64,000 bases of DNA from positions 54,947 through 118,946 of the IMG/VR virus record IMGVR_UViG_3300023174_000080, one strand, 5' to 3'. Positions within the stretch are counted from its first letter, which is position 1; each line of letters begins with the position of its first letter. A program made the position numbers and the translations under genes. Below are positions 43,400 through 51,604 of this stretch, one piece after another. Under the pieces are notes generated by a model. It ran no database searches, had not been told where the DNA came from, and saw nothing but the letters and a program-made list of their open reading frames with translations. Origin of the DNA: a virus.

Positions 43400-46171
43400 A
43401 TGTCAGTATCAAAATTTAGATTTGTATCACCCGGCGTATTTGTTAATGAAATAGATAATTCTCAATTACCAAGAGAAGCAGAAGAAATGGGTCCAGTAAT
43501 TATTGGACGCTCCTTGCGCGGTCCTATGATGCGCCCTGTACGAGTACAAAGTTTTTCTGATTTCGTAGATGTATTCGGTAATCCAATCCCCGGTGGTGCC
43601 GGTGGCGATGTGTGGAGAGAAGGCAATAAGTTAACACCAACTTACGCCCCATACGCTGCACAAACTTATTTAGCAAATTCTTCACCAGTTACTTTTATAC
43701 GTTTAGGCGGTTATCAATATCTTGGCGATAGCGCAACAACTGGTTTAGCAGGTTGGGAAACGCCAAAAGCATATGGTTTATTTGTTGCTCCTACAAGTGG
43801 TTCTGGAGTATCAACAACTGTTAACGGTCTAGCACCTTTAGCAGCAATAATTTATGCAACCGGTTCTATCGGCCTTTCCGGTAAAGGATTAGCTAGTTTA
43901 TCAGATAACGTAACTAATCAAAGCAAGACATGGGTTAAGCTTGATAATAATAATCTTGAATTAAGAATTGTTGCTGGCGGTTTAACTTCAAGCGTTAATT
44001 TTGATGATCAATCAAAAAAATATATTCGTAGCGTTTTGAATACAACCCCATCATTATACTCAGAAAAAAATTATTTTTTGGGTGAAACATTCTTAACTTT
44101 CGTTAAAGAAAAATTAGGTAATAGCATAACATCAACAGAAAATTATGCAGCGATCTTGCTAGAATTAGTAGACCATTCTAACTTTAGAAAAAATGCTGGC
44201 GATGCAAATTCTGACCCATCTGGTAATTCAACATTAGATAACTATGCAGGTTGGGTTGTATCACAGCACACCTCAGTATCTTCAAGTATGACCGCATCAG
44301 CAGATGGTACTTACGCTAGCTTGCAAAATTTATTTAAAGTAGTCGGCTTATCAGAAGGTGAATGGAATAGCCAAAATCTTAAAGTATCTATTGAAGATAT
44401 TAAATTGCCACCAAATCAATTCATTAAGTATGGTACATTTACATTGTCTATTAGAAAGATGGATGACACAGACACTAATCCAGTATTCTTAGAAAGATTT
44501 ACTGGTTTGAACTTAGATCCTTCGTCAGAAAATTATATTGCTAAGAAGATTGGTGATAAATATAGTGAATGGGATTATGATAAATCTGCATTTATAGAAT
44601 ATGGAATGTACGATAATCAATCCAAGTATATTAGAGTTCAAATGAATCAAGATGTAGATAATGCTTTGCTCGATCCAGCATTATTGCCATTTGGTTATTA
44701 TGGTCCTGTAGTATTAACTACTGGTTCAGTAAGTGGCACAAACGGCTATTCTATTACAAATGGTTTCTTAGCTGGTAACGTTGTAACAGCTAGTAATGAA
44801 TTTACTGCTAGCTTTAAATTACCAACAATTCCAAACTACACTGATAATTCTTATAGTCCTGTTTCTAGCAAAGCAGCTATGTATTGGGGCTTAAAGACAA
44901 ATGTTTCTGCTTCTAAGAAACACAATCAAGATATTTTAGATCTTGTTAGAGCAAAACCAGTAGACTATGCCACATTAGGTGGAACTGCAAAAGTATCTTA
45001 TCTATTCTCTCTTGATGATGTAAGCGGATCTGTTGTTAATGGAGTATTGGATAAATCCGCACCAGTATCTTGGACAGAAGGTAATAGAGCGGTTGGTGCA
45101 TCTTTAACTACTGATACAAGTTCATTTGATGGCGTTACTGGTTTATTACAAACTTTCAATAAATTTACATTGCCATTAGTTGGTGGTTTTGATGGTTTAA
45201 ATATATTAAAAGCAGATCCATTTGCTAATAGTTTATTATCTGTAGCTAATGGCGATCACACTGCAAACTATGCATTTAACAGCGTTAAAGTAGCTATCGA
45301 AAGTATTGCAGATGCAGAAGTAGTAGAAATGAATCTTGCATCAGTCCCCGGTATCTATGAAGAAAGATTAACAAATCTTTTGATTGAAAAGTGCGAAACC
45401 CGTGGTGATGCTTTGGCAGTTATTGACTTAGAGGGTGATTATGACCCAGAAGCTACCACAAATGCCGATAAATTGCCAGTAGTACAAGATACTGTTGATG
45501 CTTTGAAGAACCGTACATTGAACAGCAGCTATGGTTGTGCATTCTTCCCATGGGTATTGGTAAGAGATACTATCAGCAATAAGAAAGTATGGATGCCGCC
45601 TTCTGTAATTGCATTAGGTACCTTCTCTAGTTCACAAAAGAAGACCGAATTATGGTTTGCACCAGCAGGTTTTAACCGTGGTGGTTTGACAGATGGTTCA
45701 GCAGGTTTACCAGTTCTCCAAACATCATTACGTTTAAGTTCCAAGGACCGCGATGCTTTGTATGAAGCAAACATTAATCCAATTGCTACATTCCCAGCAG
45801 AAGGAATCGTAATCTTTGGTCAAAAGACCTTACAAGTAACACCAAGTGCGTTAGATCGTATTAACGTTCGTCGTTTAATGATATACTTGAAGAAAGAAAT
45901 TAGCAGAATGGCATCAACAGTATTGTTCGATCCAAATGTTGAAGTCACATGGAATAGATTCTTGAATCAAGCACAACCTTTCTTGGCTAGCGTACAATCA
46001 AGATTCGGTTTGTCAGAGTATAGAATTATTCTAGACAACACAACAACAACGCCAGACTTAGTAGATAGAAATATCGTATACGCTAAGATTCTTTTGAAGC
46101 CAACACGCGCTATCGAATTTATCGCTCTTGACTTCGTTATCAGCAATACAGGTGCTTCTTTCGCTGATTAG
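43400..46171 (+). CDS. Contractile tail sheath protein (T4 gp18-like)
   Basis: A 923-residue sheath subunit, larger than T4 gp18 (659). The start (KFRFVSPGVFVNEIDNSQLP) and PVIIGRSLRGPM are the conserved N-terminal handshake region. The C-terminal domain is also typical: SALDRINVRRLMIYLKKEI, FDPNVEVTWNRF and a final strand KPTRAIEFIALDFVIS. Residues ~130-600 hold Ser/Thr-rich insertion domains that would decorate the sheath exterior and explain the extra length. Codon use becomes more capsid-like toward the 3' end. It is followed by the tube gene, as in T4. Confidence 0.95.
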   Translation: MSVSKFRFVSPGVFVNEIDNSQLPREAEEMGPVIIGRSLRGPMMRPVRVQSFSDFVDVFGNPIPGGAGGDVWREGNKLTPTYAPYAAQTYLANSSPVTFIRLGGYQYLGDSATTGLAGWETPKAYGLFVAPTSGSGVSTTVNGLAPLAAIIYATGSIGLSGKGLASLSDNVTNQSKTWVKLDNNNLELRIVAGGLTSSVNFDDQSKKYIRSVLNTTPSLYSEKNYFLGETFLTFVKEKLGNSITSTENYAAILLELVDHSNFRKNAGDANSDPSGNSTLDNYAGWVVSQHTSVSSSMTASADGTYASLQNLFKVVGLSEGEWNSQNLKVSIEDIKLPPNQFIKYGTFTLSIRKMDDTDTNPVFLERFTGLNLDPSSENYIAKKIGDKYSEWDYDKSAFIEYGMYDNQSKYIRVQMNQDVDNALLDPALLPFGYYGPVVLTTGSVSGTNGYSITNGFLAGNVVTASNEFTASFKLPTIPNYTDNSYSPVSSKAAMYWGLKTNVSASKKHNQDILDLVRAKPVDYATLGGTAKVSYLFSLDDVSGSVVNGVLDKSAPVSWTEGNRAVGASLTTDTSSFDGVTGLLQTFNKFTLPLVGGFDGLNILKADPFANSLLSVANGDHTANYAFNSVKVAIESIADAEVVEMNLASVPGIYEERLTNLLIEKCETRGDALAVIDLEGDYDPEATTNADKLPVVQDTVDALKNRTLNSSYGCAFFPWVLVRDTISNKKVWMPPSVIALGTFSSSQKKTELWFAPAGFNRGGLTDGSAGLPVLQTSLRLSSKDRDALYEANINPIATFPAEGIVIFGQKTLQVTPSALDRINVRRLMIYLKKEISRMASTVLFDPNVEVTWNRFLNQAQPFLASVQSRFGLSEYRIILDNTTTTPDLVDRNIVYAKILLKPTRAIEFIALDFVISNTGASFAD

Positions 46172-46215: not shown

Positions 46216-46809
46216 ATGTCATTTTGGAGTACAGCGACAGCAGAACCAAAAAGAAAGTTTAGATGGAAAATAGTATTTTCCGGTGCAGGTGGTATTTCAA
46301 ACTTATCCTATGCTCTTAAAAAAGCAGATAAACCAAAAGGTAAAGTAAATCCAACTACCCACAAATATTTAAATCACAACTTTAATTATCCGGGTCGTTT
46401 TGAATGGGAAGATATCAATTTAACCTTTGCTTCAGTTTCACAACCTGATGCAACGTTTTTAATTAATCAAGTATTAATTAATGCTGGTTATGGTGTACCG
46501 AAAACAGCCGGTAACACAACCACAAATAAAAGAGATTTAGCTACAATCAGCAAACGTAAATTCAATGGCGCTTTAGGTAGCTTCTTTAACATTCAACAAT
46601 TAAACCCAGATGGTGAAGTAATTGAAAATTGGAAAGTGTGGAATCCATTTTTTACTAGCGTTAATTATGGCGATCTAGATTACAGCAGCGAAGATATCGT
46701 AGATATCCAAGTTGGTGTTAAATACGATTATGCACAATTAATGGATATAAACTCAAACAACCCAGTTGATAAAAATACTCCATTTAATCCCGGTTTCCCA
46801 AGTCCATAA
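46216..46809 (+). CDS. Tail tube protein (T4 gp19-like)
   Basis: A 197-residue tube subunit that would stack as hexameric rings inside the sheath. It begins MSFWSTATAEPKRKFRWKIV and has LNHNFNYPGRFEWEDINLTF, IENWKVWNPFFTSVNYGDLDY and DIQVGVKYDYA, all typical of the gp19 fold. Length is near T4 gp19 (163). It is followed by a longer paralogue. TAGGAGAAC precedes the ATG. Confidence 0.93.
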   Translation: MSFWSTATAEPKRKFRWKIVFSGAGGISNLSYALKKADKPKGKVNPTTHKYLNHNFNYPGRFEWEDINLTFASVSQPDATFLINQVLINAGYGVPKTAGNTTTNKRDLATISKRKFNGALGSFFNIQQLNPDGEVIENWKVWNPFFTSVNYGDLDYSSEDIVDIQVGVKYDYAQLMDINSNNPVDKNTPFNPGFPSP

Positions 46810-46839: not shown

Positions 46840-47622
46840 ATGCCATTTTGGTCAGATAAAGAAACAAGTGAGCCATTAAGACAAAATAGATGGTATATAG
46901 AATTTGGTAGTTTAGAAAATTTTAAATATGCTTTAAAATCATGCTCCAAACCCGAATATGATATCGGTGTTTCGGAGCATGTTCTTTTGAATCATACTTT
47001 TAGATATCCGAAAAATCTTGTCTGGAAGCCGGTAACAGTTAAAATGATATCTGTTACCACCAACGCTATTGAATACGATCCAGCATCAGGAAAAACAAGC
47101 TTGTCTGAAAAATTATATCAAATGCTGTATTATGGCGGATATAGACCACCAAGTGAAGAAACAACACCTTCTGCTCCTGTGCCATCTGATAATCGTGCGC
47201 CGGTTATTCCTAAACCTCCCGGCCCAGAATATAATAAATCAAATATTTCTAAAAAAAATTTAACTGCTGGTCTTCTTATGCAACCGCAAGAATTAATAAA
47301 AAAAGTAACACCAGAGGGAGGTTTGATTCGATTAATTCAAATTGATTCTAATGGAAATGGAATAGAATTTTGGGATTTGTATAATCCTTTTATTAATAAC
47401 GTTAAATTTGGTAGTTTATCATATGATAATGATGGATTTGTTGATATTGATTTAACTATTCAATATGATTATGCTAAAGTTTATTCTAAGCCCTCTGATG
47501 ATAAAGGTTTAGATAGACAAACATTTACTATATTTGGTTTAGATACTAATATTCAAAATCCATTTGCTTCACTATCACCTAGTGATAAAAAAATTAATCC
47601 GGGTTTCCCTAGCTCGAATTAG
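46840..47622 (+). CDS. Second tail tube-type protein (gp19 paralogue)
   Basis: A 260-residue paralogue of the tube protein: MPFWSDKETSEPLRQNRWYIEF, LNHTFRYPKNLVWKPVTVKM and a final DIDLTIQYDYA align with the 46216 product. An insertion of about 50 residues (Pro-rich, ~95-145) and a longer C-terminal tail distinguish it. Contractile tails use tube-like paralogues at the baseplate end (tube initiator) or the terminator end, so a capping or initiating ring is likely. No Shine-Dalgarno; a late promoter element ends 5 bases upstream. Confidence 0.82.
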   Translation: MPFWSDKETSEPLRQNRWYIEFGSLENFKYALKSCSKPEYDIGVSEHVLLNHTFRYPKNLVWKPVTVKMISVTTNAIEYDPASGKTSLSEKLYQMLYYGGYRPPSEETTPSAPVPSDNRAPVIPKPPGPEYNKSNISKKNLTAGLLMQPQELIKKVTPEGGLIRLIQIDSNGNGIEFWDLYNPFINNVKFGSLSYDNDGFVDIDLTIQYDYAKVYSKPSDDKGLDRQTFTIFGLDTNIQNPFASLSPSDKKINPGFPSSN

Positions 47623-47685
47623 TAGTAGTATAACACGAAAGCGTAGGTTTATATGCGTAACAATGAAGAACGTCTTGGAGCAAAT

Positions 47686-48504
47686 ATGGCTCGCCAAGAC
47701 CCATTTGTACCACAAGCTCCACAAGCAGCAGATGCGTCAGCGGCACCATTAAGTTTTATTGTTCCTACCGAGCATGTAATGTTGCCATCTGGAGGTAAAT
47801 TTTATCCAGAACATCATCCATTGCACGGCAAGGATTCAATAGAAATTAAACAAATGACTGCGAAGGAAGAAGATATTCTTACTTCTAAAAATCTATTAAA
47901 AAAGGGGGTGGCCTTAGATAAATTAATTCAATCTCTTGTTGTAGATAAGAATATCAATACAGATACTCTTACTATTGAAGATCGGAATGCAATTATAGTT
48001 GCAGCAAGAATTTCTGCTTACGGAGAAGAATACGCTACACAAGTAGCATGTCCAGAATGCGAAACAAAAGTCAAGCATACCTTTAATTTGTTGGAAAAAT
48101 TAGAGAATCAAAAAATTCCAGAATCAATTACTATAGCCGGTGATGGAACTTTTGATTTATTACTCCCTTCAACTAAATGGAAAATAAAATGTCGCGCACT
48201 TAATGGATATGATGAAAAAGCAATTTTAAAATTATCAGAAGCAAAAAAGAATGGCAAAGAAAGCGATTCTTTACTTCTTGAACAATTAAAGATGACAATC
48301 GTAGAAATACAAGGCGTTTCTGATAAAGAAATGATCAATAGAGCCATAGATGCAATGCCAGCAAAAGATTCTAAATATATTAGAGGCATGTACGAACGAA
48401 TAGTTATTCCTCTTGATATGACAAAAACATTTAAATGTGAAAATTGTGAATATGAATCAACGCTGGAGGTACCGCTGACAGCAGACTTTTTTTGGTTTAA
48501 GTAG
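47686..48504 (+). CDS. Baseplate hub assembly protein (T4 gp26/gp51 family), short product
   Basis: A 272-residue protein from ATG 47686 (TTGGAG 5 bases upstream); an in-frame ATG at 47653 has no such site. Residues ~25-80 (LPSGGKFYPEHHPLHGKDSI, then EIKQMTAKEEDILTS) are the T4 baseplate family signature, followed by CPECETKVKH near 125 and a CENCEYE pair near the end, which may bind zinc. It precedes the tape measure gene, where other tailed phages place frameshifted tail chaperones. A T7 run 12 bases before the stop appears to allow such an extension (see next entry). Confidence 0.8.
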   Translation: MARQDPFVPQAPQAADASAAPLSFIVPTEHVMLPSGGKFYPEHHPLHGKDSIEIKQMTAKEEDILTSKNLLKKGVALDKLIQSLVVDKNINTDTLTIEDRNAIIVAARISAYGEEYATQVACPECETKVKHTFNLLEKLENQKIPESITIAGDGTFDLLLPSTKWKIKCRALNGYDEKAILKLSEAKKNGKESDSLLLEQLKMTIVEIQGVSDKEMINRAIDAMPAKDSKYIRGMYERIVIPLDMTKTFKCENCEYESTLEVPLTADFFWFK

Positions 48505-48676
48505 CGATTATCAAGAGAACACATATAGCAATTTTTTCTATTTAAAATACTATGGTGGTTTCTCTTTATTTGAAAGCTATAATTTACCAGTTGGTCTTAG
48601 AAACTGGTTTGCTAAAAAATTGTCAGAGCAATTAAAAGAAGAATCAGATGCTATAAAACACGCATCTAAGAAATAG
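48494..48676 (+). CDS. Frameshift extension of the hub/chaperone gene (60 codons)
   Basis: An open frame of 60 codons after the T-run, ending at TAG 48674. It encodes GLSSDYQENTYSNFF, then YYGGFSLFESYNLPVGLRNW and a charged helix (AKKLSEQLKEE). The frame has no ATG, GTG or suitable TTG start near its beginning, and a stop lies just upstream (TGA 48477). It is therefore reachable only by a +1 or -2 shift at TTTTTTT (48487-48493), giving a ~329-residue fused protein. The layout parallels lambda G/GT before the tape measure. A sequencing error in the T-run would produce the same picture. Confidence 0.6.
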   Translation, partial: GLSSDYQENTYSNFFYLKYYGGFSLFESYNLPVGLRNWFAKKLSEQLKEESDAIKHASKK

Positions 48677-48679
48677 AAA

Positions 48680-48708
48680 GTGAGCGGATTATCCGCTCAC
48701 TTTTTTTT
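48680..48708 (+). terminator. Strong rho-independent terminator
   Basis: GTGAGCGGA (48680-48688) and TCCGCTCAC (48692-48700) form a perfect 9-bp stem with a TTA loop, followed by eight or more T's. It separates the hub/chaperone gene from the tape measure gene. A CACTATTTAAT element begins four bases after the T-tract. Confidence 0.93.
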
Positions 48709-48754: not shown

Positions 48755-51604
48755 ATGGCTGAAAAAAGCGCTGAAGAATTAGAGAGAGAAGTAAAACTTC
48801 TAGAGCAAGCTAAAGCTCTCAGAGAAGAAAATATTTCTTTAATTGAAAAAGAATCTAAATCTTTAAAAGACTTATCAAATTTACAAGGTGATTCAAATAA
48901 GGAATTACAAAGAGAAGAAGCTGCAAGGAAACTTAATAAAGAATTATTAACCTCTGAATCTAAACTTTTAAAAGAACAAATAGATTTAGAGTTAAAGCGT
49001 AGCGATTTAACAGACGAAGAACAAAAAAAATTAGCCGATAAAGTCGTTAGATATAGAGAAATTCAAGATCAAATAAAAGAAGAAATAAATTTACTAGATA
49101 AGGTAAAATCAGGATTAAGTAAATCTATAGATTTTGCTAGCAATTTAGCTAAGGGGTTTGAAAACGGATTAAATAAAATTCAAGGCATGGTAGGACAAAT
49201 CTCAGGACTTCAAGGAAGTCTTAGCGGCTTATTAAACAGCATAAATGATATTGATGGCGGCTTGGGAAACGCTGGATTAACATTATTAGATTTTAATAAA
49301 ACGATGGGATTATTAAAAGAACGTTCTTTGGAGGTCATTAAAGCCAATCAAGATGTTGCTACAAATACAGGTGTTGTTTTAACAACTCAGAAAGCTTTAT
49401 TAAGTCAAGGATTAGGACAATTCGGTATTTCAAATAAAGAATTAGGAGAATCATTTACTAGTCTTTATAATAATATGAATACTTTTTCACATTTAAATCT
49501 AAATGTGCAAAAAGATTTAGTCGCATCAGCTGCTAAGATGAAAAATCTTGGGGTTGATACTAACACATACGCTAAAGATTTACAACTTTTAAATACTACA
49601 TTGGGTATGTCGGCAACAAAATCCAATGAAATGATGGGGAAGCTTGCTCAAACCGCTAGAGAAGCAGGAATAGCGCCAAAGAAAATGTTAGAAGAATTTG
49701 GGCCTGCCATGAGTTCCCTAGCAGTATATGGTCAAAAAGGTGTTCAAATCTTTGTTGATTTGGAAAAGCAATCTAAATCATTAGGCATTGAAGTTGGTCG
49801 TTTGAATTCTATATTCGGTGAAGCATTTGATACATTTGAAGGCGCTGCTCAAAAAGCTGGTGGTTTAAATGCAATATTGGGTGGTGATTTCCTTAATGCC
49901 ACTGAAATGATGAATGCTAATGAATCAGAAAGAATTATTTTGTTGAAAGAAGCAATGGAAGCCTCTGGCAAAAGTTTTGGTTCTATGGATAAGTTTGAAA
50001 AGAAGGCCATCGCAGCCCAATTGGGCATTAAAGATATGGCTGAAGCTGAAAATCTTTTTGGTAAAAGTTCCAAAGAGATGGAAAGCGATATGAATAAAAA
50101 AATTAATACTCAAGAATCCCTAACTAAAGCACAATTAGCTGGTGCCGACGCACAAAGAAAAGCACAATTAGCTCAACAAGCAGCAGCAGAAGAAATGAGA
50201 AAATACATAGAAGAAGTTAGAAAAGCTTTAGCTCCAATATTTGAATTTATTGATAAAAATAAAGCTTTAGTAGCCGGAATTACTGCTTTTATCGGTGTTG
50301 CTGGTCTAGTCATACCAGTAATAATTGGCGTGATTGGTGTAATCAAAACACTATGGGGTATGTCTACCGGATTGATTAATTTTTTTAGATCTTTCGGTTC
50401 TGGAGTGAAAGCTGCTGGAGAAAGCTCAAAAAAATCTATGGGTGCTATGTCGGAAGGGCTTAAGAAAATGTCCGCTCCACAAATACTCATAGCGTTATTA
50501 TTAATTTCTGTTGCCATAGTCGCAATTGGTTATGCCATTAAAATAGCCTCAGAGGGTTTAGCAACGCTTGTTAAAGCATTCCAAGGGTTAACCGGTCCTC
50601 AAGCTGCTGCTGCCGTAGCAGCGATTGTAGTTGTTATGGCGGGCTTTGTGGCTATTATCGCTGTATTAGGTGCTATAATGTTGGCCGGTCCCGGTGCCGC
50701 TGCTGTTGCTGGTATGTTAGCACTCGGCGTTGCTGCAGTATTATTAGCTGTTGCTTTAAATTTGGCGACTGATTCATTGGTTATTTTGATGCCATATATG
50801 GAGCCAATAGCAAAGCTAATTATAGACGGATTAGTAGTGGCATTCAAATATTTAGTAGATGCATTAAAATCAGTTGCATATATAATTGGTGATGTTTTAA
50901 TAGTAGCATTTAAAGGTATAGTGGAAATAGCTAAAGAAGTTGGGAATGTATTAAAAGCTGCGTTTTCTGCCGTAGTTGATATATTTAAAATATTAGCCGA
51001 CGTAGTTAAATCAGCTTTTGGAACCGTAGTAACTATATTTGATAAAATCATCCAATTAGCAGGAATGGATGGAATAACAATGAAACTAATGGGAATCGCT
51101 GGAGGACTAACGGCAATAGCATTCGCTTTAGTGGCATTAGGAACTGGTTCTGCTCTTGGAGCTTTGGGTAATTTAATTGGCGGTGCGTTTACTGGTATTA
51201 GCAATGTATTCACAGGTGGTGACACAAAATCTGGAATAGACGGCGTTACCGATTCTGTAACTAAATTAGCAGCTGCAATGAATGCCTTGCCAACTGATTC
51301 AGAAGTTAGAGTGAAGGGTATAGTACAGATGAATCAAGTTGTAAATACCGCTGGTGTAGCTAACTATGAAGCAGCAAGCAATTTCATGATAAGAGCTAAA
51401 GAATATCACGATGCACAAAAATTATCAAAAGATGCCGATAAAGATGCTTTATTGGGAGCACTTAAAGTATTATTCGGCACCGGAGAAGAAAAGAAAGAAG
51501 GCGAAGAACAAGGTGGCATGAAAATGATATTGCAAGTTGATGGCGATGAACTAAATGCTGTGTTATTTGGTAGAGGTGCTGGAATGTTTAAAACCAGAAG
51601 GTAG
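48755..51604 (+). CDS. Tail tape measure protein
   Basis: A 949-residue protein with the usual composition of tape measures. Residues 1-120 are a Lys/Glu-rich coiled coil. Residues ~200-500 are helical with many Gln/Asn and repeated LGIxV-type turns. Three hydrophobic regions follow: ~505-532 (LVIPVIIGVIGVIKTLW), ~575-595 (LIALLLISVAIVAIGYAI) and ~615-670 (AIVVVMAGFVAIIAVLGAIM), then amphipathic segments. It sets tail length and may enter the host membrane on infection. It is larger than T4 gp29 (590), predicting a longer tail. The antisense open frames over the Ala-rich part are artefacts. Confidence 0.9.
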   Translation: MAEKSAEELEREVKLLEQAKALREENISLIEKESKSLKDLSNLQGDSNKELQREEAARKLNKELLTSESKLLKEQIDLELKRSDLTDEEQKKLADKVVRYREIQDQIKEEINLLDKVKSGLSKSIDFASNLAKGFENGLNKIQGMVGQISGLQGSLSGLLNSINDIDGGLGNAGLTLLDFNKTMGLLKERSLEVIKANQDVATNTGVVLTTQKALLSQGLGQFGISNKELGESFTSLYNNMNTFSHLNLNVQKDLVASAAKMKNLGVDTNTYAKDLQLLNTTLGMSATKSNEMMGKLAQTAREAGIAPKKMLEEFGPAMSSLAVYGQKGVQIFVDLEKQSKSLGIEVGRLNSIFGEAFDTFEGAAQKAGGLNAILGGDFLNATEMMNANESERIILLKEAMEASGKSFGSMDKFEKKAIAAQLGIKDMAEAENLFGKSSKEMESDMNKKINTQESLTKAQLAGADAQRKAQLAQQAAAEEMRKYIEEVRKALAPIFEFIDKNKALVAGITAFIGVAGLVIPVIIGVIGVIKTLWGMSTGLINFFRSFGSGVKAAGESSKKSMGAMSEGLKKMSAPQILIALLLISVAIVAIGYAIKIASEGLATLVKAFQGLTGPQAAAAVAAIVVVMAGFVAIIAVLGAIMLAGPGAAAVAGMLALGVAAVLLAVALNLATDSLVILMPYMEPIAKLIIDGLVVAFKYLVDALKSVAYIIGDVLIVAFKGIVEIAKEVGNVLKAAFSAVVDIFKILADVVKSAFGTVVTIFDKIIQLAGMDGITMKLMGIAGGLTAIAFALVALGTGSALGALGNLIGGAFTGISNVFTGGDTKSGIDGVTDSVTKLAAAMNALPTDSEVRVKGIVQMNQVVNTAGVANYEAASNFMIRAKEYHDAQKLSKDADKDALLGALKVLFGTGEEKKEGEEQGGMKMILQVDGDELNAVLFGRGAGMFKTRR

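Follow-up and report, generated by a model that had tools for sequence, protein, structure and literature searches.

A probable +1 frameshift in the T4-like tail assembly chaperone gene of an uncultured myovirus and its relatives

In a stretch of viral DNA of 64,000 nucleotides (the window), one locus very probably encodes two forms of a tail assembly chaperone (TAC), as judged from sequence comparison: a short form, TAC-N, and a long form, TAC-NC, which would be reached by a +1 slip of the ribosome. A dual-frame architecture conserved among relatives, constraint on the extension at the protein level, constraint on the shift site, homology of the short form to PF12322 and a profile chain to T4 gp51 were observed. 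A previous sequence-only reading had proposed a frameshift signal of the G/GT type in the gene that precedes the tape measure, and the conserved +1 extension lends support to this proposal. The positions it gave for the T-run, the GGAGGT motif, the stop codon and the terminator were all correct.

TAC-N is encoded in frame 0 at 47653-48504 (plus strand, 283 aa, TAG stop at 48502-48504) and is of the T4 gp26/gp51 type. It matched PF12322 (T4_baseplate) over profile positions 9-219 of 219 with an E-value of 5.1e-19 and 69.3 bits, above the curated cut-off of 24.5 and thus within the T4-like TAC-N family. A match to phrog_150 (baseplate hub) was obtained with an E-value of 1e-19. AF2 models were made separately for TAC-N and for the extension. 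The TAC-N model matched gp26-type baseplate hub subunits in BFVD, for example that of SP-15 (E 1.6e-16). No significant structural neighbours were found in the PDB, where the solved TAC 2ob9 (HK97-type TAC fold) stood at rank 7 with a weak match (E 1.8, prob 0.35).

The source IMG/VR virus record of 118,946 bases belongs to a myovirus by gene content, with terminase, major head protein, sheath and two tube-like genes. Along the window the sheath gene at 43400 is followed by tube-like genes at 46216 and 46840, the TAC at 47653 and a large gene at 48755. The TAC pair lies after the tube and directly upstream of the tape measure position; gene order and protein family together lead us to infer that its product is a tail assembly chaperone. 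The gene in the tape measure position (48755-51604, plus strand, 949 aa) had no matches in PHROG and Pfam searches at E<=0.001. Its counterpart is annotated as tape measure in immuto and in SP-15 relatives; by position and by these annotated relatives, it is probably the tape measure gene. The neighbouring tube-like genes (46216-46809 and 46840-47622) are likely a duplication, and the sheath (43400-46171) is large with 923 aa. tRNA genes were not found in the window, and a nucleotide search of isolate phages gave zero matches.

The frame at +1 (equivalently -2) to TAC-N is open from 48479 to 48673 and ends with TAG at 48674-48676. Past the T-run it encodes 60 residues (GLSSDYQ...HASKK), the TAC-C part of the long form (48494-48676 with its stop, plus strand). 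The continuing 60-codon frame without start codon that ends at a strong terminator, as described in the sequence-only reading, was confirmed; the terminator-like stem overlaps its stop.

Homologues were collected from separate contigs in a first round (45-66% identity). All 79 with a readable site carried GA(C/G/A) TT(T/C) TTT TGG, after which the +1 frame encodes one and the same protein. With seven further scans of viral contigs, and with isolate phages, the collection came to 421 loci with a readable 3' end, which were grouped by seed: the window (A, freshwater-like), a marine relative (B), Microcystis phage Mel-JY01 (C), Flavobacterium phage immuto (D), the huge phage LR756508 (E) and P-SSM2 (G). 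Among the 323 loci of the +1 groups A-E, the extension stood in the +1 frame in 321, had a separate start in two (L356 and L360) and was fused in frame in none; these sequences are related, and the counts are hence not independent events. Frame 0 closed 3-6 codons past the shift site in the 322 loci with a recognised site. Homologues with six or eight T giving one continuous frame, which would have spoken against a frameshift, were not encountered among the 323 loci. One might suspect a decayed fusion gene, or a mistake in sequencing or assembly, since errors are frequent in homopolymers and the window derives from a metagenome. The same frame break, however, occurs in more than 300 separate loci, in variants without a homopolymer and in isolates, among them Mel-JY01 and immuto, the closest isolates encountered, and the probability of such an artefact is next to negligible.

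The extension could also be a separate small gene with its own start, translated by reinitiation after the TAC-N stop. In L356 and L360 it does have a frame of its own, opened by an ATG shortly past this stop, and Mel-JY01 is annotated accordingly, with a TTG start. In the window, however, no ATG, GTG or TTG was found in the extension frame before the TTG at 48620 (residue 43), which is downstream of the conserved core. Of 52 distinct freshwater relatives, 20 have no start codon up to residue 12 of the extension; a common start position with a ribosome site is lacking, and the slip site is under synonymous constraint. A separate gene is thus very improbable. The independent start that the sequence-only reading had weighed against a frameshift is absent from the window; among the 323 loci, a separate start was seen in L356 and L360.

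Within a core of 45 codons, 60-66% of the substitutions in groups A and B fell on third positions of the +1 frame. The pN/pS of the core in this frame was 0.16 for the freshwater and 0.12 for the marine set. Stop codons were absent from the +1 frame, whereas each of the other two frames gave over 1000 codon comparisons with a stop. The relatives therefore share a conserved C-terminal extension in another frame without an own start. PHROG and Pfam searches with the extension alone gave no matches. Its AF2 model is a helical domain (mean pLDDT 85), for which no significant structural neighbour was detected in BFVD. Strong matches link the extension to its counterparts in groups B, C and D. In profile comparisons the pooled +1 extensions matched the -1 extensions of T4-like TACs (P-SSM2 group) with an E-value of 6.6e-6, and the latter matched the C-terminus of T4 gp51 with 3e-6 (chain probabilities 85-88%). 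The direct match between the +1 extensions and gp51 was not significant, so the link runs solely through the -1 group. Both gp26 and gp51 of T4 belong to PF12322, and gp51 consists of the PF12322 domain plus 48 residues. Because this chain leads from the extension to the gp51 C-terminus, the extension probably belongs to the long chaperone form.

The shift site GAC TTT TTT TGG (48484-48495, plus strand) includes a run of seven T at 48487-48493. A +1 slip would move the tRNA from UUU 48490-48492 to UUU 48491-48493 and replace UGG by GGU in the A site. In 148 de-duplicated sequences of groups A-C, the second phenylalanine codon was always TTT and never TTC, with TTC making up 14-21% of the phenylalanine codons in the genes of these groups. 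The conserved core before UGG is UUU_U; about half of group D has CUU_U, rarely CUA_U. Over all sites, the slip codon was UUU, save for CUU/CUA in the immuto-type group and one relative, and the next base was always U. For the bacterial release-factor-2 genes (prfB), two shift sites have been reported, UUU_U and CUU_U (PMC5009743). The CUA_U variants of the immuto type count against this +1 rule, as the slip would there need the preceding UUU_C instead of CUA.

Natural variants of the site are TTC TTT TGG and TTT CTT TGG. The former was found in seventeen distinct sequences, namely 7 of 51 distinct freshwater sequences and 10 of 12 in the LR756508-type group. The +1 extension persists in relatives with TTCTTTTGG or TTTCTTTGG, whose runs do not exceed four or three bases. 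These variants bear on transcriptional slippage, which would produce mRNAs with six or eight U. Most members do have the seven-T homopolymer, but TTC TTT TGG leaves the polymerase only four T, and the persistence of the extension with the short runs makes this explanation scarcely credible.

A ribosomal frameshift of -2 at the same T-run, as known from phage Mu (PMC5009743), would lead into the identical downstream frame and add one extra phenylalanine to the product. The seven T of the window permit re-pairing from UUU to UUU two bases back, and the upstream GGAGGT lies on the long-spacing side, as for backward shifts. In the TTC TTT TGG variants, however, tRNA-Phe would have to re-pair on UCU with a mismatch in the middle, and the conserved sites UUU_U and CUU_U are +1 sites. 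A -2 shift is improbable on these grounds. The sequence-only reading had left the shift as +1/-2: the frame was confirmed, while the natural variants favour +1 and speak against -2.

The bases upstream of the slip codon are informative about -1 as well. A T before TTTTTT, which would create the -1 heptamer U_UUU_UUU, was absent in all 189 distinct sites, with T making up 35-39% of the third positions in these genes. In the LR756508-type group, T precedes TTCTTT in 5 of 10 sites, where no -1 heptamer could form. The -1 frame closes one codon past the slip in the window and in its freshwater and marine relatives; the extension is thus not in the -1 frame after T TTT TTC/T, which is the arrangement of the -1 frameshifting T4-like TACs. 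Together, the absent T, the TTC TTT TGG variants and the constant slip codon favour +1 as the direction of the shift and point to selection against -1 leakage at this site. For the window, sequencing error, transcriptional slippage and an independent start were rejected by means of homologues, variants and a start-codon scan.

Translation of the locus would then proceed as follows. Most ribosomes would read the 283 aa of TAC-N and stop at 48502-48504. In a minority, peptidyl-tRNA-Phe would stand on UUU 48490-48492 while a slow UGG occupies the A site; these ribosomes would move ahead by one base to UUU 48491-48493 and read on from GGU. Addition of the 60 residues of TAC-C would lengthen the product to about 340 aa (TAC-NC). 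If the lambda G/GT model (PMC5009743) holds here, TAC-N would coat the tape measure protein and a few copies of TAC-NC would recruit tube subunits. Shift efficiency and chaperone function are here presumed.

A Shine-Dalgarno-like GGAGGT at 48465-48470 (plus strand), 16 nt before the T-run and 19 nt before the slipping codon, is a possible stimulator. It was kept in 48 of 51 distinct freshwater (A) and in 54 of 54 distinct marine (B) sequences. Its glutamate codon was GAG in 47/47 and 42/42 cases, although GAA is preferred in these genes. For stimulators of this kind, spacings of 3 nt for +1 and 9-14 nt for -1 shifts were published (PMC5009743); the 16-19 nt found here match neither rule. The internal motif noted in the sequence-only reading was hence correctly placed and is conserved, but its spacing is unlike that of published +1 or -1 stimulators. 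Marine relatives have a mini-hairpin of 4 bp (CCGC/GCGG) between GGAGGT and the slip site, with all four pairs in 52 of 53 marine and 24 of 51 freshwater sequences; the CCG and GCG codons were under synonymous constraint in the marine set. In the window its place is taken by CCGCTGACAGCAG (48472-48484, plus strand), which forms only 3 of the 4 pairs. A search for a stimulatory RNA structure on the 3' side gave unconvincing mean z-scores of 0.02 to -0.95. UGG and GGAGGT may take part in shifting. It is conceivable, though rather unlikely, that GGAGGT at 16 nt and the hairpin form a +1 stimulator of new geometry, in which the hairpin shortens the effective spacing towards the 3 nt of prfB, and that the direction was also swapped in evolution at one Phe-Phe pair through the neighbouring bases.

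Downstream, a stem resembling a Rho-independent terminator (48675-48705, plus strand, 14 pairs followed by a T-run) overlaps the stop of the extension and precedes the tape measure gene. Three terminator-like sites were counted in 1.5 kb, compared with 0.7 +/- 1.0 in shuffled sequences. A simple scan picked up a comparable element behind the extension in 33 of 50 relatives from freshwater and in 28 of 59 marine ones.

T4-like tail assembly chaperones, including frameshifted TAC-N/TAC-NC, are the subject of a published study (Vladimirov, Gautam, Davidson, Virology 2022, 566:9-15). Hence, the view of the sequence-only reading that a frameshift here would first extend the pattern to the T4 family is outdated. 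The locus shares with these TACs the PF12322 TAC-N family and the Phe-Phe junction, and its TAC-C is tied to T4 gp51 through the -1 group. In P-SSM2, S-PM2, HTVC008M, phiM12 and KVP40 the frameshifted extension starts at the same Phe-Phe, but by -1 at T TTT TTC. HTVC008M and phiM12 shift by -1 at T-runs, whereas the group of the window would shift by +1 at UUU_U. In 35 of 53 distinct P-SSM2-like sites, GGAGG precedes T TTT TTC by 10 nt, which fits the -1 rule, in contrast to the 16 nt between GGAGGT and the T-run in the window. T4 itself has no extension after gp26 and instead a separate long gene 51.

Other systems are comparable in part. In lambda, too, a single gene directly ahead of the tape measure yields a short product, gpG, and a frameshift-extended one, gpGT (PMC5009743). 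Lambda shifts by -1 and the group of the window probably by +1; the likeness concerns the arrangement and implies no homology. The TAC of HSTV-2, a phage of a different lineage, has a forward shift in the same kind of gene that was described as 'very likely +1' (PMC5009743). Part of the SEA-PHAGES set consists of TACs shifting by +1, and the PRFect training set holds 350 forward cases, again from other lineages. The +1 shift of prfB takes place at CUU_U, in a minority at UUU_U, with an A-site codon starting with U, as here. The A-site codon of prfB is UGA and its SD-like stimulator is 3 nt away, whereas UGG and 16-19 nt are found here.

Frameshifts in T4-like chaperones and +1 shifts in the chaperones of other phages are thus already known; the +1 direction within the T4-like TAC family looks new, as against the -1 at T TTT TTC in cyanophages, KVP40 and some jumbo phages. 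A description of this version, of its site rules or of the odd SD spacing was not found in the searchable literature, which excludes the full text of Vladimirov et al. (2022). In annotating a large set of uncultured freshwater and marine phages, the terminal chaperone domain can easily go unnoticed or be taken for a hypothetical gene of its own.

A -1 shift at the same Phe-Phe was found in P-SSM2, S-PM2, HTVC008M, phiM12, KVP40, PA5oct, RaK2 and Atu_ph07 (L098, L099, L101, L102, L103, L090, L091 and L092), with T TTT TTC or T TTT TTT as sites. Groups A-E, like the SP-15 relatives, have the extension in +1. A quick tree required two direction changes, which its long branches make unsure. In L356 and L360, TAC-C is a separate ORF with an ATG just past the TAC-N stop, without an overlap that would permit a frameshift; judged by sequence, this small clade lies within the +1 clade and has naturally lost the shift in favour of a separate ATG. 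At one Phe-Phe junction, the family thus combines several solutions: cyanophages and KVP40 shift by -1, the relatives treated here by +1, T4 relies on separate genes, and L356/L360 have given the extension its own start. This variety amounts to a natural experiment on the evolution of shift direction.

In Mel-JY01 (L081, 5157-6237) the locus is annotated as two overlapping hypothetical proteins, WWT39325.1 and WWT39326.1, of which the latter begins at a TTG. They resemble the TAC-N and the +1 TAC-C parts of a single frameshifted gene. SP-15, GXN1 and LIS04 (L087, L088 and L089) carry xCC CGA TT a few codons past the Phe-Phe, with the extension in +1; the slip could occur there at UUU or at the slow CGA codon.
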